48,170 bases of DNA from Candidatus Poribacteria bacterium (lineage in GTDB: Bacteria > Poribacteria > WGA-4E > PCPOR2b), in the NCBI GenBank assembly GCA_022822785.1, contig JAJEAL010000128.1:1-48170 (forward strand), in the 5' to 3' direction. The position numbers were made by a program, and so were the translations under genes. The notes under the pieces are model-generated. The model was not told where the DNA came from and did no database searches. It was given only the letters and a program-made list of their open reading frames with translations. Below, piece by piece: positions 19,377 through 31,010 of this stretch (its first letter is position 1; each line of letters begins with the position of its first letter).

Positions 19377-20327
19377 CTAAAAGCGAGTGTCCAATACTAC
19401 GAATGTCGTACTACGCGGCGGTTCATTCGATGTACCAAACAGATTGGATTCAGAAATCTGCTTTCGGAGTCTATCTCGGAAACGATTTTCCTGTTGTTGG
19501 TTAAAAATCTTCGCGGACCGCCAGCTATCATACACGTTGTTGAAATAAAAAAATAGCCCGATGATACCTAGGGGAATTGCGACTTCGTAACGTTCTTGGT
19601 CGATATAATACGCTGTTCCGGCAGTAACCGTACCAACGACCAAAAGGGAATATGCTCCTACCGAATAGCGTCCATTATAAACTTGCCCAAGTCCCGGGAA
19701 AAGCACTGAAAGCAAACCGGCGGTAACAGGTGATCGGCGAGGAAGCAGCGCTGCCTGTTGCGCTATACCTATTAACTGATCGCTCATTTCCGCGAAAGGT
19801 GTTTGCGAATATTTCATTCGTACCTGCTCCCATTCTTGCGCTGCGGCTGTCCAGTCTTTTCTATCCATATGAATTGTTCCAATAATAAACTGTGCGCGTG
19901 GTGCTAATTCGCTCTCTGGATAGTCTGATAAGAATTGACGCAACGATGCAATGGACGTGGCTTGATTGCCGCTCAGGAGTTGGCATTGCGCGACATTCGA
20001 GCGAGCACGCTCAATGAATGGGCTTTGTGGATAGTTTTGGATTAATGACTGATAAGCCTCTATTGCTGTGTCCAACCGGCCCGCATTCTGATATGCCGCA
20101 GCGATATGGAGCTGAACAAAATCCCCTTGGGCAGTATTCGGGTAAAGGAAAAGGTAACGTTGATATTCATGCACAGCATTCAGGTAGTCCCCTTCCTGAA
20201 AGAGAGATTGTGCAAAGCCCAATAGGCTATCAGCATCAAAGGACTGTGAATAGGCAGGGAAAGAGCAGAACAGAAAGAGACAGGAGAAACACCAACAGAG
20301 GAGTAAAAAGGGGCACGTCAATTTCAT
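19377..20327 (-). CDS. TPR protein with C-terminal PGxGQxYxGR membrane segment (copy 1)
   Basis: 316 residues. Signal peptide FLLLCWCFSCLFLFCSFPAY, cut probably near YSQS. TPR-like repeats follow (GDYLNAVHEYQRYLFLYPNT, GRLDTAIEAYQSLIQNYPQS, ESELAPRAQFIIGTIHMDRK), a spacing seen in BamD/YbgF-type periplasmic proteins. After residue ~205 comes LSVLFPGLGQVYNGRYSVGA and two hydrophobic stretches (LLVVGTVTAGTAYYI, IPLGIIGLFFYFNNVY). It is paralogous to the next gene, sharing the PGxGQxYxGR turn at the same relative place. Probably membrane-anchored with the TPRs outside the cytoplasm. No clear ribosome site. Confidence 0.75.
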   Translation of the reverse strand: MKLTCPFLLLCWCFSCLFLFCSFPAYSQSFDADSLLGFAQSLFQEGDYLNAVHEYQRYLFLYPNTAQGDFVQLHIAAAYQNAGRLDTAIEAYQSLIQNYPQSPFIERARSNVAQCQLLSGNQATSIASLRQFLSDYPESELAPRAQFIIGTIHMDRKDWTAAAQEWEQVRMKYSQTPFAEMSDQLIGIAQQAALLPRRSPVTAGLLSVLFPGLGQVYNGRYSVGAYSLLVVGTVTAGTAYYIDQERYEVAIPLGIIGLFFYFNNVYDSWRSAKIFNQQQENRFRDRLRKQISESNLFGTSNEPPRSTTFVVLDTRF

Positions 20328-20398
20328 GTGAGCATCAAGAAGCGTTGCGGTTCAGTTTAAGGATTAAGAGTGTATTACAGATTTAGCTGAGTCGCCTT

Positions 20399-21070
20399 TT
20401 AACCTGAAGCAGCCGCTTGGCGTAAGGAACGAATTGCGTGATGGAGGTCATCTTGCCCGAAAATGGCGGTGCCCGCCACTAAAACCGTCGCCCCACAACG
20501 TCCGACCAACGCAGCAGTCTCTTGGTTGATTCCGCCATCAACCTCGATTGCGACGTCCAGTCTTCGGGCTTGAATCAGCTGCCATAGTTGACCAATCTTG
20601 TTGAGCGTATCCTTTTGGAATGACTGCCCACCGAATCCGGGTTCGACACTCATTGGCAAAATAAGGTCAACCTCCGCAAGATAGGGATCAACAGCTGTAA
20701 CAGGTGTCTTCGGTCGCAAGGCGATGCCAACTTTGACCCCGTGACTCTTAATCTGATCAATAATTGTGGGGAGCTGTTCCTCTATTTCAATGTGAACGGT
20801 GATAAGATCTGCGCCCGCATCAACGAAGGCATCAATATATGCCTGCGGTTCGCTGAGCATCAGATGTACATCAAAGGGCAAGTCTGTATAAGATCGAATT
20901 GACTTGATAAGTTGAGGTCCCATTGTTAAATTCGGGACAAAGTGCCCATCCATTACATCAAGGTGGATTAGGTCCGCACCTGCCTCAGCCACCCGACGAA
21001 CCTCCTCACCAATTCGGCTAAAATCTGATGCAAGCATGGACGGGGCGATCATAATTTTTCGTTCCAACAA
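20399..21070 (-). CDS. rpe: Ribulose-phosphate 3-epimerase
   Basis: 223-residue TIM barrel that interconverts ribulose-5-phosphate and xylulose-5-phosphate in the pentose phosphate pathway. Signatures: IAPSMLASDFSRIGEEV, LIHLDVMDGHFVPNLTMGP (His36 and Asp38 metal/catalytic ligands), FDVHLMLSEP (His69), MSVEPGFGGQSF and VDGGINQET (catalytic Asp, phosphate-binding). The start is TTG at 21070 with GAGGTGA upstream; an in-frame ATG six codons later would remove the first strand. It sits after the PASTA protein in the operon, matching the common def-fmt-...-rpe gene order. Confidence 0.93.
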   Translation of the reverse strand: MLERKIMIAPSMLASDFSRIGEEVRRVAEAGADLIHLDVMDGHFVPNLTMGPQLIKSIRSYTDLPFDVHLMLSEPQAYIDAFVDAGADLITVHIEIEEQLPTIIDQIKSHGVKVGIALRPKTPVTAVDPYLAEVDLILPMSVEPGFGGQSFQKDTLNKIGQLWQLIQARRLDVAIEVDGGINQETAALVGRCGATVLVAGTAIFGQDDLHHAIRSLRQAAASG

Positions 21071-21125
21071 TTGCTCACCTCACAATACCCATTTAGCCCT
21101 GCCAATCCCATCTATCATGCCCTGT

Positions 21126-22109
21126 TTACCAATCATACTCCCGCGTTTCGACCAATATATTGTCTTCATAGATGCGCATCGTTGCTTTACCCACAACGCG
21201 CACCGGTGGCTTTTCAATAGGCGTACCGGCGCTATACGAGCTATCAACAACCTTGATTAGTTTTTTACGCTCATCCTCTATAACAATTCGTACTCTTTTA
21301 TGAGACACACCGGTTGGGGAAACCTCATATTTTATCTCCACATAGCCCCCCTTATCTTCCTGCTTTAGCTGAGAACCGCTAATCTCAAAATTGACCGTTT
21401 GTCCCACCCGGATGAGTTCTCCCGCTCCCGGCTGATGACTGATAATCACGCCTTGATTAATCTCCGGATGGAGTTTATAAACTAACTCACCGATTTGAAT
21501 TCCGTGTGATTCAAGTAAGGGACGCGCTTTATCAATTGGCATAAGGTGGAGATCGGGCATCCGCAGCACTTTTGACCGGATACCCAAGCTTAATAGCAAA
21601 TGCACCTCGCCATCATACGGATGCAGCGTCGCTGCCCGAGGAGTTTGCGCGATGACAGTATCCGTTCCCGGATAGCGATCGGTGTGGACAGCTGCAACCC
21701 GCCCGCGCCGCAATCCAACGTCCGCAAGCAATAGGTCGACATCACTCAGTGAACGTCCTGTAAGATCCGGGATCGCAACCTTTTCACTCCCTGAACTCAA
21801 GGTCAACCGAATGGGCCTATTCAACTTGATTTTGAAATTCGCCGGTGGTTCCTGCCCGATGACCTTCCCCGCTGAAAAGTCAGCACTCGGTTTTGTTTCC
21901 TGTACAGGATCGACCGCTAGCCCTGCACTGTTGATTATCCAGGCTGCTTGTTGATAACTTTGTCCTATCAAGTTGGGCACAGTAACTTCCGGCGTGTGGA
22001 CTTGATGTGGAATAATCAAAAAAAGGGCAACCAACCCAACGACACCGATAATTCCGAGACACAACACCGCAACTTTAATAACAGCAAATAGTATAGCATT
22101 TGGACGCAT
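21126..22109 (-). CDS. Membrane-anchored PASTA-domain protein
   Basis: 327 residues. One N-terminal membrane helix (AVLCLGIIGVVGLVALFLII, residues ~14-33). Three PASTA repeats follow: VTVPNLIGQSYQQAAWIINS, VAIPDLTGRSLSDVDLLLAD and LRMPDLHLMPIDKARPLLES. A beta-rich tail of ~75 residues ends YEDNILVETREYDW. PASTA domains bind peptidoglycan fragments or beta-lactams. Here there is no kinase or transpeptidase domain, so it may be a stand-alone cell-wall sensor or scaffold. AGGT precedes the ATG, and the gap to fmt is ten bases. In many genomes a PASTA kinase gene lies between fmt/rsmB and rpe; this copy keeps only the extracellular half. Confidence 0.85.
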   Translation of the reverse strand: MRPNAILFAVIKVAVLCLGIIGVVGLVALFLIIPHQVHTPEVTVPNLIGQSYQQAAWIINSAGLAVDPVQETKPSADFSAGKVIGQEPPANFKIKLNRPIRLTLSSGSEKVAIPDLTGRSLSDVDLLLADVGLRRGRVAAVHTDRYPGTDTVIAQTPRAATLHPYDGEVHLLLSLGIRSKVLRMPDLHLMPIDKARPLLESHGIQIGELVYKLHPEINQGVIISHQPGAGELIRVGQTVNFEISGSQLKQEDKGGYVEIKYEVSPTGVSHKRVRIVIEDERKKLIKVVDSSYSAGTPIEKPPVRVVGKATMRIYEDNILVETREYDW

Positions 22110-22119
22110 ATTCGACCTA

Positions 22120-23142
22120 TCAATCTATTGAGATTTCCCTGCGAAAGCATCGGTCTCCTGTGCTCACGCGGTACCCGTTTATAAACGCACGAGCGTCTAT
22201 CTCCTTTTTGTTTGCGGGTTGGACGCGATCTAATCGTAAGTGCTTGCCTCCCAAGTTGCCTTGTCCTCCGATTTTATTTTCATTGTTCGTACCGGTAAAG
22301 ACCACAAGTTCTTTGTCAGGCGTAATCTCAATTGTACCACTGGGAAATCCGGCAGAATTTGGGTAATCAACAACAGTGCAAGCAGTTACTTTCAAACGGA
22401 GATTATCATCTGTGGAGCCTTGGCCTGTTTTTACCCAAGTATACGCACCAGGCCAAATCGAAACACCACGCACCAGATTGCGAATCTGATCTGCCGGCTG
22501 AGTCCAATCAATTTGACCCACCTCCTTGGTAAGTCGGGGAGCATGAGTTGATTGGGAATGATCTTGAGGCTGATGTGGCGGCGGACCATCCGAGATGCGC
22601 GCTAACGCCTCCATCAACAGGCGAGGCGCTAAATTCGCTAACCGGACTGAAAGGGTACCGGCATCATCCAACTCATCAATTGGCAAGCTGGTTTGCAGAA
22701 TAATATCCCCCGTATCTTCCCCCTCGTCAAGGAGCATAATTGTAACCCCTGTTTCTGTTTCACCGTTAATGAGTGCCCATTGAATCGGAGCAGCACCTCG
22801 ATACTTCGGGAGGCACGAGGGATGCACATTGAGGCAACCGTAAGGCGGAAGTTCTAGCACCGATTTAGGCAGAATCTGACCAAAAGCAACAACAACTATT
22901 ACATCGGGCCGAAGCTCTTTGAGCACACGAACAGAATCACGGTGCCGTACCCGTTCCGGTTGATAAAGTGAGAGATTGTGTGCAGCAGCAGCAACCTTAA
23001 CGGGAGGCGCGGTCAGTCGCTTCCCTCTACCACTTGGGCGGTCAGGCTGCGTTACAACCCCAATGAGCTCGAACCTTTCCGCAACCAATCTTTCTAGGCT
23101 CGGAACGGCAAATTCACTCGTTCCCATGAAGAGAATCTTCAT
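22120..23142 (-). CDS. fmt: Methionyl-tRNA formyltransferase
   Basis: 340 residues. Formylates the initiator Met-tRNA with 10-formyl-tetrahydrofolate. The N-terminal formyltransferase domain shows MKILFMGTSEFAVPSLERL, the catalytic Asn105 and His107 in NVHPSCLPKYRGAAPIQWAL, and Asp143 in GEDTGDI. The C-terminal OB-like domain begins around IDWTQPADQIRNLVRGVSIW, with PGAYTW typical. It overlaps the 3' end of def by 29 bases in a different frame, as is common for def-fmt pairs. It is slightly longer than the usual ~315 residues because of extra loops near residues 205-215 and 285-300. Confidence 0.95.
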   Translation of the reverse strand: MKILFMGTSEFAVPSLERLVAERFELIGVVTQPDRPSGRGKRLTAPPVKVAAAAHNLSLYQPERVRHRDSVRVLKELRPDVIVVVAFGQILPKSVLELPPYGCLNVHPSCLPKYRGAAPIQWALINGETETGVTIMLLDEGEDTGDIILQTSLPIDELDDAGTLSVRLANLAPRLLMEALARISDGPPPHQPQDHSQSTHAPRLTKEVGQIDWTQPADQIRNLVRGVSIWPGAYTWVKTGQGSTDDNLRLKVTACTVVDYPNSAGFPSGTIEITPDKELVVFTGTNNENKIGGQGNLGGKHLRLDRVQPANKKEIDARAFINGYRVSTGDRCFRREISID

Positions 23143-23653
23143 TTTCAGTCACCGTATTTCCTGATGATTCCGGTTCAGATTCAAGCAGTTCTTGATCTTC
23201 AGGACGCAGTAGATCGGTAAAAAGAATCCCGTTCAGGTGGTCAATTTCATGTTGCAAGACTCGCGCCATAAGATTGCTCGCATCGAACTCAATTTTATCC
23301 CCATTCGGCAGCAGTCCTTCTACCTTCACAATCGCTGCCCGCCGAACGATTCCGCGTACCCCCGGCAGACTGAGGCACCCCTCTTCAGCGAGCTCCTCAC
23401 CAACGGTCATGGTAATGACGGGATTAATCAATGCGATCCGCGGATACTCCGGGAGGTGTTTTTCGATATCAATAACGATGATTCGCTTAGACACGCCAAC
23501 TTGCGGGGCCGCCAGACCAATCCCTTCCGCCGCGTACATAGTCTCAAACATATTTTTGATAAACGGATGTAGGTCGGCGTTAATTTCTTGAACAGGTGCA
23601 GCCCTTTGTCGTAAAACAGGCGCATCATCGGTTTGGATTTCTAAAACAGGCAT
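23114..23653 (-). CDS. def: Peptide deformylase
   Basis: 179 residues. Removes the N-formyl group from nascent proteins, the partner activity of Fmt. All three motifs are intact: GIGLAAPQVG (44-53), EEGCLSLPG with metal ligand Cys93, and QHEIDHLNG with His135, catalytic Glu136 and His139. The C-terminus is extended by an acidic tail (EDQELLESEPESSGNTVTEN). That tail is encoded over the fmt start, so it may be shaped by the overlap. Cytoplasmic and ribosome-associated. Part of the long minus-strand operon, 39 bases after the small membrane protein gene. Confidence 0.95.
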   Translation of the reverse strand: MPVLEIQTDDAPVLRQRAAPVQEINADLHPFIKNMFETMYAAEGIGLAAPQVGVSKRIIVIDIEKHLPEYPRIALINPVITMTVGEELAEEGCLSLPGVRGIVRRAAIVKVEGLLPNGDKIEFDASNLMARVLQHEIDHLNGILFTDLLRPEDQELLESEPESSGNTVTENEDSLHGNE

Positions 23654-23691
23654 AGTGTCAAATGTGGAACGTGAATAAATCTATAGATTGA

Positions 23692-24192
23692 TTAAAACCG
23701 AACATGAACAAGGGGCACAACAAATCCGCCCGGCTCATCGGTGTCCCAATCTTGCTGTCTAGTGCCCTGAATCGGCGATCGCCGCGGCGGAATCATGGGC
23801 TTCGGTAACGTCTGAATCAATTCTTCGGAAGGATTTTTATCATGTGTATGCAGCCAATCCCAGAAACCGATAAACAGAGCAAACGATACTGCAGAGGCAC
23901 CAATAATCCTAAAATCTGTCGTGGAGAGTTCAGGAGCAAACTCATTTTGGCGAATCATTTGGATGCCACGTACCCCCGCATAGCTATGAATCGCTGTAAA
24001 TGGCAGTGCAATAAGGGTGACAATCTCGAAGCGACGTAATGCGCTTTCGTGGTAAACTTCCTCCTCTTCCTGACGTGCAGACGACGCCTCCTCCGAACCT
24101 TCCTGAAATTGGGCAGAAACATTAATCGCAACCATCGCCGTTAAAATCAGAACGATGAGTAATCTAATTTTCGATCTGGTCCGCTTCATCAT
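23692..24192 (-). CDS. Small exported or membrane protein of unknown function
   Basis: 166 residues, not recognised. N-terminal signal or anchor (KIRLLIVLILTAMVAINVSA, residues ~8-27) and an acidic linker (EEASSARQEEEEVYHE). Two further hydrophobic stretches follow (FEIVTLIALPFTAIHSYAGV and IIGASAVSFALFIGFWDWLH), then a Pro-rich end closing in VPLVHVRF. A terminal Phe after alternating hydrophobics is seen in outer-membrane strands, but two helices argue for an inner-membrane protein. GAGGGGATT precedes the ATG. It overlaps the end of lspA by 29 bases and precedes def, so it belongs to the operon. It may serve envelope biogenesis; no firm function. Confidence 0.7.
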   Translation of the reverse strand: MMKRTRSKIRLLIVLILTAMVAINVSAQFQEGSEEASSARQEEEEVYHESALRRFEIVTLIALPFTAIHSYAGVRGIQMIRQNEFAPELSTTDFRIIGASAVSFALFIGFWDWLHTHDKNPSEELIQTLPKPMIPPRRSPIQGTRQQDWDTDEPGGFVVPLVHVRF

Positions 24193-24664
24193 AATCCCCT
24201 CGATGACGAAATAGGTAAACCATTAACAGCCCGGCACCGATACACACGGCAATATCGGCAACGTTGAAAGTGGGCCACCAGAAGCCGGGCAGTCGGCATT
24301 GAATGAAATCTGTGACTTCCCCAAGGCGGACCCGGTCAATAAAGTTACCTAGTGCCCCTCCAAGCAGAAAACTGAGCGCAATTCTCATCCACAAACTCTC
24401 ACGGAACTGTCGATAGTAGTAGGCGATAAAACCGAGAGCAATAATCGAGATAATAACCAGTAGCAGACTTTGTCCTGGCATCAATCCAAACGCGGCACCG
24501 TCATTCGTATCATGACGGATGTTCAGTATGCCCTGAATTATCACACGTTGACCATGGCGTGGGATATTTTGTTGAATTAACCACTTAGTAAATTGGTCTA
24601 CTAGCAACACAGGCAAAGCAATACCAAATAAAGGTGCAATCAATTTGAGTCCGTTTCTCATCAT
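24164..24664 (-). CDS. lspA: Lipoprotein signal peptidase (signal peptidase II)
   Basis: 166 residues, four membrane helices. Cleaves prolipoproteins before the lipidated Cys in the inner membrane. Conserved blocks: VDQFTKWLI, DTNDGAAFG, GGALGNFIDRVRLGEVTDFI (catalytic Asp119) and FNVADIAVCIGAGL (catalytic Asp137). ATGATG start at 24664 with GAGG upstream; that GAGG lies in the centre of an 18-base palindrome (24667-24684). The ileS homologue upstream and lspA downstream match the usual ileS-lspA pairing. A matching lipoprotein with an LISAC-type lipobox is encoded at 38091. Confidence 0.95.
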   Translation of the reverse strand: MMRNGLKLIAPLFGIALPVLLVDQFTKWLIQQNIPRHGQRVIIQGILNIRHDTNDGAAFGLMPGQSLLLVIISIIALGFIAYYYRQFRESLWMRIALSFLLGGALGNFIDRVRLGEVTDFIQCRLPGFWWPTFNVADIAVCIGAGLLMVYLFRHRGDYDEADQIEN

Positions 24665-24666
24665 GA

Positions 24667-24684
24667 AGTATACCTCGGTATACT
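24667..24684 (-). promoter_or_regulatory. Perfect 18-bp palindrome over the lspA ribosome-binding site
   Basis: AGTATACC-GA-GGTATACT on the minus strand: eight-base arms around a two-base centre, ending two bases before the ATG of lspA. The probable Shine-Dalgarno (GAGG) spans the centre. It could be an operator, or an RNA hairpin that masks the ribosome site. It lies in the 99-base gap after the ileS homologue. Confidence 0.5.
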
Positions 24685-24763
24685 ATAATACGTGATAAAT
24701 AATAGCTAGAAACAGGCTAAAGGAAATTCAGATGCCCGTATTCCCATCTGCATATTTCATCTC

Positions 24764-27175
24764 TTATTCGTGCTCCGTTACGTCTTGCCCTGCTCCTTCC
24801 TCTGACGACTGCTTCCAACCCACGCTCTCACCCGCAAGGTCAGAGAGGTCGATATGGGAGATCCAATCTCTAAAAAAAATGCTCGGAGACTCAGACTCAT
24901 CGGGGCGTTCGGTGGAATCCACAGTCGAAGCAGCTCCCCACGTTCGGATTAAGGCGTAGGTTTGCTCGGAGAAAAAAGGGAGGATTGGTGCAAGTCGTTG
25001 TGTCAAGACACATAAAATCTTCGATAGCGCTGTTTGGCAAGACCGCTTCTCCTGCACTGTGTTCAGCACATTGAACCGATGATCGCAAAATTGTCGCAAA
25101 TCTGATTGACAGAAATCTCTCAGAAGCGACCATGCCTGACAAAAATCGCGTCGCTGATAGGCGAGATCTACGGATTGAATCGTCCTAGAAGCAGTGGCTA
25201 GCACCTGTTTATCCGGCATTAACAATGGCTCTAAAGACGCCCCATGTAGGTCGAAGGTGAAATCTTCGAGATGACTCAATATCGTGGTGAACAATCCTTG
25301 AATAGTGTTGTATTCCCCCTGATACTGCTGGAGGTGTTTTTCAATCAATGATGAGTCTAGATTCGACTGAAGGCAGAGCAAGCGCAGTACATCTTTTGGA
25401 TATTCATCCACCCAGCTTTGGCTGGTATCAACCGATTGGACATCTGAAGCATCACCCGTCAACTCCACGTTCAATGGACCCGAACCGGAGATAGCAATTG
25501 AAGTCAGCACGAACTGAGCAAACCACTTTTGAAATTGATCTGAGCAAGAGAAGTAAACTTTAATAGGCTCAACCACATTTCTCTTGACGGCAAGGTTGTT
25601 AATTGCGTTAAGAAGAACCGCAAAGTGGCCCTCAAGAGTTGTAAATTCTTTACGGAACTCTTTTGCATCACAGTTAAGACATAAGGTATTGGGAGGCAAC
25701 AGATCTTCAGCAGCCAGCTTGAACCAGCTATCGGCACCACGACGGCTTATCAAAGTACGAATAGCTTCGATAATTCGGGGATCAGACAATTCTCTTCCAC
25801 ATTTTTGGCACTGAAAGCTAGGTATAGGGGTTCCCCAACCTCTATGGCACGAAACGGGGGGTGATGGAAGGTCGCGAAGCGTTTGTTGAATCCACTCCCT
25901 ATCTTTAGGTCTATACTGTGTCAAATGCTCATCCGAACGAATCAGACGCTCTCGCAATTGATTCTTGTCCAAGGAAAAGACCCACTGTTGAATGGGGCGA
26001 AACAGGGCAGGCGTCTCACATCTCCAGCAATGGGGTTGCTGTATATCCTCAAACCCTGCTGATATTAGATAGCCCCGTTTTTCGAGTTCAAAGGCGATAA
26101 ATTTCCCGGCATCAGACACTTCAAGTCCACAGAACTGCTCAGCATCTTCTGTTAGACATCCCGTGTCATCAATAACCGATGTAATCGGAAGTTGCAGGTG
26201 TTGTGCAATTTGATAATCGTATGGGTGGTGCCCTGGGGTGAGATGCCTCACCACAGTCAGTGGGTGAGGGGTTGTCTCCTTATCTGGCCTATCATCATCT
26301 TGAGGAAGCTGCGGGATTACAACTACCGGCAAGTCTGTACCTAGGAATGGATGGGCGCAGATACAATCTGTGAGCGTATCAACTGAGCGGGTTTGTAATC
26401 GATTTAACCCTGCGTGATAATCCCGCGGCAGGCGAGTTGAGAGATCTGCTTCAGCGAGCAGAAGGATTTCACCCCCCAATTCAGCAATCCAATATTTACT
26501 ATCCGGTTGTACCCCAATGGCAACACTTCCAGCAAGATGCCATAGATCTGGAAGCCAAACGAGTAGGTATACGTCTTCGCCAAACTCTTCTAAGCCGATG
26601 CTCACAGGAAATTTGACATAGCCTGAATATACTGGAGATGGGTGCATATCCATCTCATCCGCATCGACTACGGTATTGCATTTCGGGCACCAAGCGCCTA
26701 ATTTATGATTTTTATTTAAATACCCTGATTTCTGTAATATGTTGAAAGCATTGATAATCTTCGCCTCATCACGTGAATCCAGATTTCTGCCTTTTTTCCA
26801 ATTTCCAAAAATCCCAAGTGCCTGTAGTTGATTTTGCTGCTTGTTAACCTCACGTTGGAATTCACGTCGGCACTGTCGGCGAAAGCGGAGTGCATCAAAG
26901 GCGCCATCTTTACATTCCCGGTCCAGCACTTTCGCTTCAACAGCTGCGGTATAATAGCTCCAACACGGCACATAGTCCACACCTATTCCTTGCATCATGT
27001 TGACTTTAAGAAAGATATCCTGATGGACCTTACCTTTAAGCACATCCAATTTCAGATGATCGGTAGGCGTGGGCATTTCTCGAAGACTATAGGGGGTCGA
27101 TTCCGCTCGTTGAGTGAGTTGGGCATAGATATCAAGATCAGCCCATAATTCTAGGATTTTTTCATCGGTCAACAT
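24764..27175 (-). CDS. Isoleucyl-tRNA synthetase homologue lacking the catalytic signatures
   Basis: 803 residues that follow class Ia IleRS from near the N-terminus (KILELWADLDIYAQL) to the anticodon-binding domain (LRQFCDHRFNVLNTVQEKRS then CQTALSKIL and RLAPILPFFSEQTYALI). The active-site motifs are gone. HIGH aligns with about KLDV (42-45). GWDCHGLPIE is CWSYYTAAVE (71-80). Editing TTPWTLPAN is LPDLWHLAG (208-216). SRQRxWG is SCHRGWG (442-448). DTLDVWFDSG is TTLEGHFAVL, and KMSKS is about VDTSQS (582-587). Cys pairs (163/166, 456/459, 499/502) are kept. It also lacks the usual ~25-40 N-terminal residues and the C-terminal zinc finger. No stops or frameshifts, and GGTGA precedes the ATG. 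It sits at the standard ileS locus. Unlikely to aminoacylate; perhaps a tRNA-binding or regulatory paralogue. Confidence 0.85.
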   Translation of the reverse strand: MLTDEKILELWADLDIYAQLTQRAESTPYSLREMPTPTDHLKLDVLKGKVHQDIFLKVNMMQGIGVDYVPCWSYYTAAVEAKVLDRECKDGAFDALRFRRQCRREFQREVNKQQNQLQALGIFGNWKKGRNLDSRDEAKIINAFNILQKSGYLNKNHKLGAWCPKCNTVVDADEMDMHPSPVYSGYVKFPVSIGLEEFGEDVYLLVWLPDLWHLAGSVAIGVQPDSKYWIAELGGEILLLAEADLSTRLPRDYHAGLNRLQTRSVDTLTDCICAHPFLGTDLPVVVIPQLPQDDDRPDKETTPHPLTVVRHLTPGHHPYDYQIAQHLQLPITSVIDDTGCLTEDAEQFCGLEVSDAGKFIAFELEKRGYLISAGFEDIQQPHCWRCETPALFRPIQQWVFSLDKNQLRERLIRSDEHLTQYRPKDREWIQQTLRDLPSPPVSCHRGWGTPIPSFQCQKCGRELSDPRIIEAIRTLISRRGADSWFKLAAEDLLPPNTLCLNCDAKEFRKEFTTLEGHFAVLLNAINNLAVKRNVVEPIKVYFSCSDQFQKWFAQFVLTSIAISGSGPLNVELTGDASDVQSVDTSQSWVDEYPKDVLRLLCLQSNLDSSLIEKHLQQYQGEYNTIQGLFTTILSHLEDFTFDLHGASLEPLLMPDKQVLATASRTIQSVDLAYQRRDFCQAWSLLRDFCQSDLRQFCDHRFNVLNTVQEKRSCQTALSKILCVLTQRLAPILPFFSEQTYALIRTWGAASTVDSTERPDESESPSIFFRDWISHIDLSDLAGESVGWKQSSEEGAGQDVTEHE

Positions 27176-27238
27176 TTGCTATCACCGTTGGGACCTACAT
27201 AAAATCGTAAGGATGAGGAGTTTTGAAGAAGTGAACAC

Positions 27239-27514
27239 TTAATAGAGAGTAGCAACTAATATCCTTTGCAGTATTTGCAAAAAAATTAGCAAAATAAGCG
27301 GTGAAATGTCAATTCCCAGGCTCCCTGTCATGGGACTAAGCACACGACGAATTGGATCTAGTGCGGGATCCACAAATCGATTCGTCATCCAATAAAATTG
27401 TCTTGCCATCATATTACCAGACAAATTCACAATCCAAGATAATATAACATTAGCAAAGACGACGATTGAGTAAATTTCAACCACTTTAACGACAAGAGGT
27501 ATAAATACTTCCAT
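27239..27514 (-). CDS. yggT: YggT family small membrane protein
   Basis: 91 residues from the ATG at 27514, with AAGGA nine bases upstream. A GTG at 27538, directly after the proC stop, would add eight residues. Two membrane helices flank an amphipathic loop: LVVKVVEIYSIVVFANVILS, and at the end ISPLILLIFLQILQRIL. The loop FVDPALDPIRRVLSPMTGSL is the YggT hallmark. In bacteria it lies with yggS, proC and often ileS, and is linked to division or osmotic stability. Its place here, between proC and the ileS homologue, is the classic order. Confidence 0.88.
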   Translation of the reverse strand: MEVFIPLVVKVVEIYSIVVFANVILSWIVNLSGNMMARQFYWMTNRFVDPALDPIRRVLSPMTGSLGIDISPLILLIFLQILQRILVATLY

Positions 27515-27538
27515 AATCGAGAGTCCTTCCAATCTCAC

Positions 27539-28354
27539 TCAATTTGCAAGTTCTTCCGCCCGTTTGGTTGCAGCACTCACTGCATCAGCGATAATTGCTC
27601 GCAGGCGCCCATTCTCCAGCGCATATAAGCCCGCTGCGGTTGTGCCTCCCGGGGTTGTCACCCGGTTTTTTAGCACTGCTGGATGTTCATCTGCGTCTTC
27701 AAGCATCTTGCACGCTCCGAGCACCGTTTGTAGGGCAAGTTGATAGGCATCAGGACGGGTCAATCCGACCTGTACCCCCGCATCAGCGAAGGCTTCAATG
27801 AACAGGAACACAAAGGCCGGCCCACTACCACTTAAACCGGTAACAGCGTTCAGGTGCCTTTCCTCCATGATAATCGATTTGCCAGCAGCGTCAAAAATTG
27901 CTTGCGCTATAGCGAGATGCTCCGTTGTGGCTGCACGTCCCGCCGCGATCGCAGAAATCGCTTCTCCCACAGATGCAGCAATATTTGGCATCACACGAAC
28001 AATCGGCGGGGGTGGAGAGGTGAAATACGATTCTAATTGGGTTGTTGAAACACCGGCCGCAATAGAGATGAGCCACTGAGACGAAGATTGGAGGGCGGCG
28101 GCAATTTCTGGGAAGACATCTGGGACGTTATTCGGCTTAGCTGCGTATAGCAGGCAGTCCACATTTTGCACCAATTCTGGGATGCTCTCTGCACTGTTGA
28201 CCCCTAACTCTTCACACAGTTGGTCAACGAGGGGACGATAAACATCTGTTACCCAAATCTGCTCAGGCGGCAGCAAATCGTGCACAACGCCTCTGACAAT
28301 TGCACCGCCCATATTGCCGACAGCGATGAAACCGACTCGAAGTTTTCTATCCAA
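27539..28354 (-). CDS. proC: Pyrroline-5-carboxylate reductase
   Basis: 271 residues. Reduces 1-pyrroline-5-carboxylate to proline with NAD(P)H. The Rossmann start VGFIAVGNMGGAIVRGVV has the GxGxxG-like turn. LLYAAKPNNVPDV and VRVMPNIAASVGEAISAI are family blocks. The C-terminal dimer/active-site region GLSGSGPAFVFLFIEAFADA followed by VTTPGGTTAAGLYALE is diagnostic. The start is TTG at 28354 with GGAG nine bases upstream. Second gene of the yggS operon, 36 bases after yggS. Confidence 0.94.
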   Translation of the reverse strand: MDRKLRVGFIAVGNMGGAIVRGVVHDLLPPEQIWVTDVYRPLVDQLCEELGVNSAESIPELVQNVDCLLYAAKPNNVPDVFPEIAAALQSSSQWLISIAAGVSTTQLESYFTSPPPPIVRVMPNIAASVGEAISAIAAGRAATTEHLAIAQAIFDAAGKSIIMEERHLNAVTGLSGSGPAFVFLFIEAFADAGVQVGLTRPDAYQLALQTVLGACKMLEDADEHPAVLKNRVTTPGGTTAAGLYALENGRLRAIIADAVSAATKRAEELAN

Positions 28355-28390
28355 AGTGCTATACTCCTATCCGGATCTGATTGAGACGTT

Positions 28391-29080
28391 TTACTCCCGC
28401 TCTCCAAAGATTGCTGTGCCCACCCTGATGAGATTCGCCCCTTCCTCAACGGCAACCTCAAAATCATTGGTCATCCCCATTGACAAGTTATCCATCTCAA
28501 CGTTGGGAAATTGCTGGGCAATAATCTTGTCCCGGAGTTGCCGAAGCGATACAAACATCGGACGCACCGCTTCGGGGTCAGGCAGAAAGGCACCGATTGT
28601 CATCAATCCCTTGATCCGGACATGGGGGTACGGGTGTGCACTTTCAATGAAGTTCAGCGTTTGATCCGGCTCCAGACCGTATTTGCTGGGCTCAGCGGAG
28701 GTATTGACCTGAACTAGCACCTCTGTCGTGCGATTTAACTGGGCAGATCGTCGATCGATTTCAGCAAGGAGGCGTAGACTATCCACAGAATGGATGAGGT
28801 CAAAAATCTGTAAGGCGTGTCTCACCTTGTTTCGCTGCAGGTGCCCAACGAGATGCCACTTTACCGGTTGGTCAATCTGGGGGTGTTTACTTTGTGCCTC
28901 TTGGACGCGATTTTCGCCAATATCTGTAATCCCTGCGTCGATTGCTTCTACAATCAGACTGACAGGCTTGGTCTTAGAAACGGCAACGAGCTGTATTGAA
29001 CTGGGGTCACGCCCGGTACGTGCGGCGGCAGCAGCAATCCGATCTTGAATCCGTTCGAGATTGTCACGAATAGATGCCAT
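28391..29080 (-). CDS. yggS: YggS/PLPBP family pyridoxal-phosphate homeostasis protein
   Basis: 229 residues from the ATG at 29080, which has GGGAGGAG upstream; an extension to 29122 has no ribosome site. A single PLP-binding TIM barrel without enzyme activity that controls free PLP and amino-acid pools. The PLP lysine is in VAVSKTKPVSL. WHLVGHLQRNKVR, SKYGLEP and LSMGMTNDFEVAVEEGANLI, then RVGTAIFG, are the other signatures (phosphate-binding at the end). First gene of the long minus-strand operon, with an extended -10 promoter at 29130-29159. Confidence 0.94.
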   Translation of the reverse strand: MASIRDNLERIQDRIAAAAARTGRDPSSIQLVAVSKTKPVSLIVEAIDAGITDIGENRVQEAQSKHPQIDQPVKWHLVGHLQRNKVRHALQIFDLIHSVDSLRLLAEIDRRSAQLNRTTEVLVQVNTSAEPSKYGLEPDQTLNFIESAHPYPHVRIKGLMTIGAFLPDPEAVRPMFVSLRQLRDKIIAQQFPNVEMDNLSMGMTNDFEVAVEEGANLIRVGTAIFGERE

Positions 29081-29129
29081 TATTCTCCTCCCACCAGAGC
29101 AAATTAACAGAAATGTGGACAACCATTAA

Positions 29130-29159
29130 ATGATAGCATATTTCGAGAAGCGATTGCAA
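29130..29159 (-). promoter_or_regulatory. Extended -10 promoter for the yggS-to-TPR operon
   Basis: On the minus strand TTGCAA (29154-29159), an 18-base spacer, then TGCTATCAT. The -10 TATCAT (29130-29135) has the TGn extension. It sits ~50 bases before the yggS start and is the only good promoter seen for the twelve-gene run down to 18405. Confidence 0.55.
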
Positions 29160-29181
29160 GCGCAACCCGTCGGTCCACCCC

Positions 29182-30111
29182 TCAACTTCTGACCTTCCAG
29201 AGCGTTGCAGGTTCATATGCCTCCCCACGTGTAGGCAGAAACTGCCGCAGATGTCGCCCACCCAATGCGAATCCGGCAAGCCCGGGCATCCCCCGATCCT
29301 CATTCTCGACACAGAGGATATAATCATATCCGGATTCAAGTAGTGCGCCAATAATTGTTCCCCAATTCAGCTGCCCACGTCCAGGCACACGGTATTGCCA
29401 CCACCAGTTCCCAATGATTCCTTGACGAAAACGCATCTGTGGACTGACTTCGCAATCCTTCACGTCGGCATAATACCACTTACCAGAAAACATGCGGATA
29501 GCGTCCTCCGCCGGTAAAATCCCCATCCAGAGCCAGTGGGAGGGATCGCAAGATAAGCCCAAGTTGTCGGAAGGAACTGCATCAAGGATACGTTCCCACA
29601 TCTCCGGATTACAGGCGATGTTACCCATTCGTACCGCACAATCAAGCGCAATCTGCACACCCTTCTCTTCAGCAAAACGGATGACCGGTGTCCACATCTC
29701 CTTGAATCTACCCACCAATTCAACCGACCTATCGCCCGGATTCCCGGGGGTCGAGGAGAATTGTCCGTAAAAATGCCAACTGACGGGACTACCTGCGTAG
29801 GTTACGAGGACCGGTGCACCGAGGATGCTTGTCGCTTCGATTGCGCGTTTGAGGTTTTCGCGGGCAGCGTCACGCGCTTCAGGATCGTCGTCCAGCAGAT
29901 TGTTGTGGGCACTTAGCGCAGCGAGATAGATATCGTGTGAACCCAAAGTCTCGTTGATTTCATCACCACCCGCTTGCAGGATATGCTCAGGATCAAATGT
30001 TCCACTAGCGTTAGGACGAATTGCATCGAAACTGTTTGCTTTCGCCCATTTGGCACACTCTTCGAGACTCCATGCACCACCGCCCACACCCATACTAAAA
30101 CTGATGTCCAT
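29182..30111 (-). CDS. Sugar phosphate isomerase/epimerase-like TIM barrel (AP endonuclease family 2 fold)
   Basis: 309 residues, begins MDISFSMGVGGGAWSLEECA. The metal-binding positions of this family are recognisable as acidic and His residues on successive strands: LSCDPSHWLWMG (Asp, His), WYYADVKDCEVS and YDYILCVENEDRGM (Glu). The strand that usually carries a Glu reads VQIALDCAVRMGN, so one ligand may differ. These enzymes isomerise or epimerise sugars and inositol derivatives in the cytoplasm. AGGGGAAATT precedes the ATG. The neighbours (housekeeping operon, prenyltransferase) give no substrate clue; the Gfo/Idh genes elsewhere in the window are typical partners. Confidence 0.82.
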   Translation of the reverse strand: MDISFSMGVGGGAWSLEECAKWAKANSFDAIRPNASGTFDPEHILQAGGDEINETLGSHDIYLAALSAHNNLLDDDPEARDAARENLKRAIEATSILGAPVLVTYAGSPVSWHFYGQFSSTPGNPGDRSVELVGRFKEMWTPVIRFAEEKGVQIALDCAVRMGNIACNPEMWERILDAVPSDNLGLSCDPSHWLWMGILPAEDAIRMFSGKWYYADVKDCEVSPQMRFRQGIIGNWWWQYRVPGRGQLNWGTIIGALLESGYDYILCVENEDRGMPGLAGFALGGRHLRQFLPTRGEAYEPATLWKVRS

Positions 30112-30188
30112 AATTTCCCCTTTTTCTATGAAGATTTCTCAAATCTGGGCTGCCCACTTGACTAGCCCTTGAAATCATTGATGTCCAC

Positions 30189-31010
30189 CTACACGACCAT
30201 ATCCACAACAGATAACACCATAAGCACCAAACTCACCACACCATTGAGTGTGAAGAAAGCGAGATTTACCCGTGAAAGATCGTTCGGCTTGACGATAGCG
30301 TGCTCATAAATCAGAATGATGATAACGACCCCAACCCCGACCAAGTAGATAACCCCCAGATCTGTCAATAGGGTCACACCGATTAGTAGCGCAACCATCA
30401 CTACATGTAGCACTGATGAGATCCATAATGCCGGTCTAACTCCGAATTTAGCAGGAATTGAATGGAGCCGATGCTCACGATCGAAATCGAAATCTTGACA
30501 AGCGTAGATAATGTCAAACCCCGCGGTCCAAAGCAGCACCGCCAGTCCAAGCAGCATGGGAGGCCAATCGAACTGACCTTTGATGGCAATCCATGCACCA
30601 ATTGGTGCGATCGAGAGGGAGGTTCCGAGCCACAGGTGGGAGAGCGAGGTAAACCGTTTGGTGTAGGAATATCCCATAATCACCACCAGCGCAACCGGTG
30701 ACAGCGCAAAAGCGAGGGGGTTAAGGTTGTACGCTGCGAACACGAGGAGCGCTGCGGAGACAAGCGTAAATCCCCAGACCGCTCCCGTCGTGATTAATCC
30801 GGCGGGGAGGGCTCGCATTGACGTGCGTGGATTCGCTTTGTCAATCTTGGCATCAGCAAGGCGATTAAACGCCATGGCACAGCTCCGGGCCCCGACCATA
30901 GCGACGAGTATCCAACCTAGCTTATCTAGTGCTGGCAACCCGTCTGAGGCGATGAACGCACTCATAATTGCAAAAGGCAGCATGAAAACCGTGTGCTCGA
31001 ACTTGATCAT
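30189..31010 (-). CDS. UbiA-family polyprenyltransferase (MqnP/4-hydroxybenzoate type)
   Basis: 273 residues from the ATG at 31010, about eight membrane helices. First aspartate motif NRLADAKIDKANPR (Asn49, Asp53, Asp57), second DIIYACQDFDFDREHRLHSI; both bind Mg-diphosphate of the prenyl donor. The pattern FEHTVFMLPFAIMSA at the start fits the UbiA-like group used in menaquinone (futalosine) synthesis. Homology seems to continue upstream: in frame are IIRKIKIILD codons before Met1, with GGGTGAGG just ahead, but the only initiators there are ATT (31040) or ATC (31037). A consensus promoter at 31068-31096 places the transcript start next to that site. The true start may therefore be non-standard. 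Confidence 0.88.
   Translation of the reverse strand: MIKFEHTVFMLPFAIMSAFIASDGLPALDKLGWILVAMVGARSCAMAFNRLADAKIDKANPRTSMRALPAGLITTGAVWGFTLVSAALLVFAAYNLNPLAFALSPVALVVIMGYSYTKRFTSLSHLWLGTSLSIAPIGAWIAIKGQFDWPPMLLGLAVLLWTAGFDIIYACQDFDFDREHRLHSIPAKFGVRPALWISSVLHVVMVALLIGVTLLTDLGVIYLVGVGVVIIILIYEHAIVKPNDLSRVNLAFFTLNGVVSLVLMVLSVVDMVV

Follow-up and report, generated by a model that had tools for sequence, protein, structure and literature searches.

Synthetase-derived pseudoenzymes with new jobs are already known. HisZ, a bacterial HisRS paralogue without adenylation activity, serves as the regulatory subunit of HisG, and SLIMP, a conserved non-charging synthetase derivative from animal mitochondria that has kept tRNA binding, has an active synthetase and the LON protease as its partners (PMC9437257). 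These cases illustrate that a synthetase without activity can take on a regulatory part in a complex (PMC9437257). LeuRS-I of the Sulfolobaceae, a class I editing-type derivative, is also non-charging yet kept, and it still makes leucyl-adenylate in a working active site (PMC9437257). As for IleRS, the type-2 enzyme (IleRS2) lacks the C-terminal zinc finger of the type-1 enzyme (IleRS1), and both types occur in one genome in certain Bacillaceae, with IleRS1 and IleRS2 of P. megaterium both functional (PMC10485003). IleRS2 works with GXHH in place of HIGH, a variant that confers hyper-resistance to mupirocin and that IleRS1 does not tolerate (PMC10485003).

Here, we describe a gene from a Candidatus Poribacteria MAG (5.60 Mb, 96% complete), contained in a window of 48,170 nucleotides (the whole stretch of DNA analysed). 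Its product is very probably an ancient IleRS1 pseudoenzyme, kept as a folded, non-catalytic binding module while a type-2 IleRS does the charging. The evidence for a pseudoenzyme consists of motif loss, intact ORFs, purifying selection, a shared locus, a separate IleRS of active type and a predicted IleRS fold. The protein resembles IleRS1 (TIGR00392; S. aureus 1QU3/1FFY, P. megaterium 8C9E) in its predicted fold over 724 aligned residues, its CP1 insertion and the place of its gene before lspA, and one deep relative has the type-1 C-terminal zinc finger. Unlike IleRS1, it is without HIGH, KMSKS, DVWFDSG and TTPWTLP, scores below the family cut-off and, in the window lineage, has no C-terminal zinc domain. 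HisZ is class II and has a known partner, whereas the pseudo-IleRS is class I, full-length and encoded at the original gene's own locus; in contrast to SLIMP, it is bacterial and its anticodon-reading parts are poorly conserved. The active-site motifs that LeuRS-I still puts to use are gone, and the type-1 copy, functional in P. megaterium, would be dead in Poribacteria. HisZ, SLIMP and LeuRS-I thus concern other synthetases, with part of the old activity kept or with a different origin. In Poribacteria, another type would have taken over the job of an essential enzyme, and the original would persist throughout the phylum, still at its own locus but no longer as an enzyme. Literature searches on pseudo-IleRS or on Poribacteria synthetases found nothing relevant; to judge from them, three features are new, namely the class I form at full length, its retention across the phylum where the original gene lay, and the pairing with a charging IleRS2. 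If the reading is true, a full-length class I editing-type synthetase has fully turned pseudoenzyme in bacteria and has been preserved since before the class split.

The gene and its surroundings are laid out as follows, with codons numbered from the first base of the ORF (27175).

24164..24664, minus strand: lspA, signal peptidase II, downstream (PF01252)
24764..27175, minus strand: pseudo-IleRS1, 803 aa, ATG start (coordinates take in the stop codon)
24896..25375, minus strand: codons 601-760, helical anticodon-binding-like domain, the least conserved part (Pfam, conservation)
25415..25456, minus strand: codons ~574-587, KMSKS loop, ~8 residues deleted, motif absent (alignments)
25613..25633, minus strand: codons 515-521, EGHFAVL in place of DVWFDSG (E. 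coli IleRS1 alignment)
25670..25810, minus strand: codons 456-502, putative zinc site 2, C456, C459, C499, C502 (alignment, conservation)
26018..26689, minus strand: codons 163-386, putative zinc site 1, C163, C166, C383, C386, around the CP1 editing-domain remnant without TTPWTLP (alignment, conservation)
27041..27052, minus strand: codons 42-45, KLDV in place of HIGH (E. coli IleRS1 alignment)
27239..27538, minus strand: yggT, upstream (PF02325)
27539..28354, minus strand: proC, upstream (PF14748)
28391..29122, minus strand: yggS, upstream (PF01168)

The original prediction described an intact ORF at positions 24764-27175, resident at the ileS locus within the order yggS-proC-yggT-x-lspA, and both points are correct: the reading frame runs for 803 codons without a frameshift, the plus strand of the same interval is full of stops, and Pfam confirms the neighbours in the window. 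Within the protein, Pfam places PF00133 at residues 6-568 (100 bits) and PF08264 at residues 655-771 (42 bits). The NCBIfam model TIGR00392 (ileS) aligns over residues 4-758 with 259.3 bits, well below its curated equivalog cut-off of 621.4 bits. The two top matches in a search of PDB sequences are P. megaterium IleRS1 (240 bits over residues 5-779) and S. aureus IleRS1 (207 bits), well ahead of the type-2 enzymes of T. thermophilus (111 bits) and P. megaterium (IleRS2, ~90 bits).

Motif positions were taken from an alignment with E. coli IleRS1. Residues 42-45 superpose on HIGH, just where they had been placed beforehand, and read K42-L43-D44-V45. GWDCHGLPIE has become CWSYYTAAVE, and the editing motif TTPWTLP has become PDLWHLA. 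With DVWFDSG and KMSKS also gone, all five activity motifs that were claimed to be replaced are indeed lost, the editing site and the two motifs characteristic of amino acid activation among them. A further motif, which the earlier account did not list, is EGSDQ, represented by SCSDQ in the window protein and by FYPNQ in relatives. The same losses are seen in 30/30 aligned members of the order and also in class-level relatives; because they recur in this way, they amount to more than chance. Every pseudo-IleRS row that contains the relevant segment, from f1 to f8, lacks the motifs, f6 and f10 contribute C-terminal fragments, and neither HXGH nor GXHH occurs in any order or class relative that covers the segment. 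Among the CP1 editing residues, TTPWTLP is lost everywhere, and the second D of GHGPDDY is retained in f1 and in most of f5, f7 and f8 and lost in f3 and f4.

Pseudo-IleRS is present in 8/9 genomes of the taxonomic family and in 69/73 genomes of the order. A scan of named assemblies, made with peptide patterns from order-level members only, which non-Poribacteria as diverged as f5-f8 would escape, returned 53 loci, every one from a record titled Poribacteria; absence of the protein outside Poribacteria is thus weakly tested. The ORF is intact at 53/53 loci (770-944 aa, with at least 95% of the match covered). The surroundings are equally constant: yggT lies upstream at all 53 loci, proC and yggS at 51 of them, and lspA follows on the same strand at 52, with a median gap of 26 bases to the lspA match. 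Deeper relatives, from other orders of the class (f5, f6, f7, f8) and from a second class (G074, in f10), encode the same kind of protein, either full-length or as fragments at contig ends, motif-less where covered, and there too lspA follows the gene. So the motifs were lost before the two classes sampled here diverged, barring parallel losses at a single locus.

The gene is nevertheless dispensable: G002 and family f2 have lost it by clean deletion. In G002, G009 and G010, gene order around the gap is unchanged. These three genomes have an active IleRS of divergent type. Genomes of f1 that keep the pseudo-IleRS gene share that type, so loss is not forced by it. That losses are confined to lineages with the divergent f1/f2 IleRS hints, and only hints, that the two proteins are linked.

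The original prediction called for another ileS outside this locus, and one is found on a different contig. A class I search of the window genome returned four further proteins, one of which is a separate type-2 IleRS of 1122 aa (C83:27321-30686, the same as L009:2822-6190) with GVHH for HIGH and AMHKS for KMSKS. One of the others, on C88, is of ValRS type, and the lengths of the remaining two, on C71 and C83, would suit LeuRS and MetRS. Across the phylum, an IleRS above the cut-off is found in 75 of 85 genomes. All six single-contig genomes (G008, G034, G068, G070, G071, G072) contain both the pseudo-IleRS gene and an above-cut-off IleRS. In G003 and G005, which are fragmented drafts, no active IleRS was detected, most simply on account of assembly gaps.

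The active enzymes of the phylum are themselves varied. In families f1 and f2, they are of the divergent type (1120-1190 aa; GVHH, AMHKS); the rest of the order has a different IleRS2 (~1050 aa; GVHH, KMSKS), and this difference is a second IleRS replacement within Poribacteria. The IleRS2 proteins of G076, G053 and G013 (L049, L051, L061) have the GXHH form of HIGH that is linked to mupirocin hyper-resistance (PMC10485003), and that of G074 (L053) has TIAH at the HIGH position. G030 encodes two high-scoring IleRS2 proteins (C84:54601-57114, 983 bits; C74:15477-17990, 964 bits) in addition to the pseudo-IleRS. Outside the phylum, plasmid 2 of Variovorax sp. SRS16 (L194:592-3135) encodes an IleRS1-like protein of 847 aa with HLGH and with KYSKS replacing KMSKS, perhaps a second, specialised IleRS.

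An AlphaFold model of the window protein, built from 28 sequences, has a mean pLDDT of 83 and a pTM of 0.80. Its best structural matches are IleRS1 enzymes, namely 1QU3 of S. aureus (Z 30.3 over 724 residues), 8WNJ (29.0) and 8C9E (28.6), whereas type-2 structures reach Z ~25-27; Foldseek agrees with this ranking. The rmsd of these matches is large (7-8 Å), which may reflect differently hinged domains. The predicted fold, together with PF00133 and PF08264, includes the class I Rossmann core with CP1 and the helical domain, in keeping with the proposal that the IleRS backbone had been retained. The eight cysteines of the two zinc-knuckle sites are kept phylum-wide at 93-100% and are found in IleRS2 rows too; that they bind zinc is suggested by their CxxC pairs and by the family. 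Both halves of the Rossmann fold and the surroundings of these eight cysteines are the most conserved regions. In the helical anticodon domain, by comparison, only 3/145 positions reach at least 90% conservation, and conservation is 1.9 bits versus 2.5-2.6 bits. Net charge of this domain, considered as a sign of tRNA binding, is uninformative, active IleRS being likewise neutral to negative there. The type-1 C-terminal zinc finger (CERCW...CxxC) is present in G074 (f10), partial and missing its cysteines in f6/f7, and absent from the window lineage (f1). Such graded stripping makes the path from enzyme to pseudoenzyme traceable.

We infer that the pseudo-IleRS most likely descends from IleRS1, because it occupies the ileS-lspA locus as in E. 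coli, G074 has the type-1 C-terminal finger, and structure and sequence comparisons both rank IleRS1 first. In a tree with ValRS as outgroup, the split between {IleRS2+ValRS} and {IleRS1+pseudo} has support of 99/98, with very long branches that make the placement of the pseudo rows unsure. The pseudo rows themselves cluster together, supported at 100/100 (in a tree without f10, f6 and one f5 fragment).

Selection on the protein had also been anticipated, and close pairs bear this out. Nei-Gojobori dN/dS is 0.09-0.38, mostly ~0.15, resembling the values for fmt and yggS and exceeding those for lspA and proC; these are pairwise estimates, with dS saturated in many distant pairs. Within the same genomes, omega is 0.11-0.20 for the pseudo-IleRS versus 0.04-0.11 for the active IleRS2, and dN is 3-5 times that of the active enzyme, except in one very close pair. 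The pseudo-IleRS is under purifying selection, weaker than on the essential enzyme, and is not evolving neutrally.

How might such a protein have arisen, and what might it do? We propose that the type-1 IleRS inherited at the ileS-lspA locus had ceased to aminoacylate and to edit by the time the two sampled classes diverged, and that a type-2 IleRS took over tRNA-Ile charging, which would have freed the type-1 copy. The old protein would have been retained as a zinc-stabilised, folded, non-catalytic binding module. With the activation and editing motifs gone, it most likely acts by binding. By analogy with HisZ and SLIMP, it may bind a protein partner via its Rossmann/CP1/zinc body, a mode of action that we favour because the tRNA-reading parts decay while the body stays, and to which we give somewhat less than even weight. 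Tentatively, the phylum might have converted its original IleRS into a non-catalytic protein dedicated to regulating or partnering, say, IleRS2 or another translation process. A tRNA-Ile-binding sensor, the role listed first in the original prediction, is less likely than a protein-partner role, because the tRNA-reading C-terminal parts are those being lost. More broadly, the protein could bind tRNA-Ile or another RNA, whether to act as a sensor or chaperone or to regulate its own operon or the active IleRS. It does retain the Rossmann core, the body of CP1 and some of the helical domain, and LeuRS-I of the Sulfolobaceae binds tRNA-Leu without charging it (PMC9437257). However, conservation is lowest in the anticodon domain, the window lineage has no C-terminal zinc domain, and a search for an RNA element that might be a regulatory target gave no Rfam match in window positions 20000-30500; we regard RNA binding as less probable than partner binding. 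It is also improbable that the protein has become a new kind of enzyme or receptor, with a different small molecule bound or converted in the old active-site pocket. The stretch that surrounded the HIGH helix (REMP...QDIFLK) does rank with the best-conserved residues of the order, but this conservation is partly ancestral, with P35 and D53 common to active IleRS; moreover, no known nucleotide-binding motif is left, and the stretch varies among f4, f5, f7 and f8.

Other explanations dispense with a new function altogether. A neutral ileS1 pseudogene, decaying since the IleRS2 takeover, would account for the raised dN and for the losses in G002 and f2, yet it is contradicted by an unbroken frame at every one of the 53 loci, by dN/dS far below 1 in close pairs and by eight cysteines kept throughout the phylum; on the ORFs and dN/dS we reject it as very unlikely. 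Just as little probability attaches to a still-active IleRS with exotic motifs, on the model of IleRS2 with GXHH. IleRS2 does tolerate an altered HIGH, but IleRS1 does not (PMC10485003), and the protein has no His at the HIGH position, a partly deleted KMSKS loop, no DVWFDSG and another IleRS beside it in the genome, so that motif loss and the second IleRS together led us to reject an active enzyme. As for an assembly or sequencing artefact, the chance is negligible: we found nothing in its favour, and it is rejected because the same kind of protein recurs in 53 records that were assembled separately, including several chromosomes in a single contig.

If the gene encodes a pseudoenzyme, as we believe, there are consequences for annotation. 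Labelling the gene at the yggT-x-lspA locus of Poribacteria as isoleucine-tRNA ligase is unwarranted; the working ileS of these bacteria is the type-2 gene, often with GXHH, the mupirocin hyper-resistance motif. Finally, the same neighbourhood contains a further ORF. At window positions 23692-24192 on the minus strand, between lspA and def and overlapping lspA, lies a gene for a 166-aa protein without a Pfam match. ORFs with a similar ESALRRFEIV motif occupy the same place in G002, G009, G010 and G077, even without the pseudo-IleRS gene.
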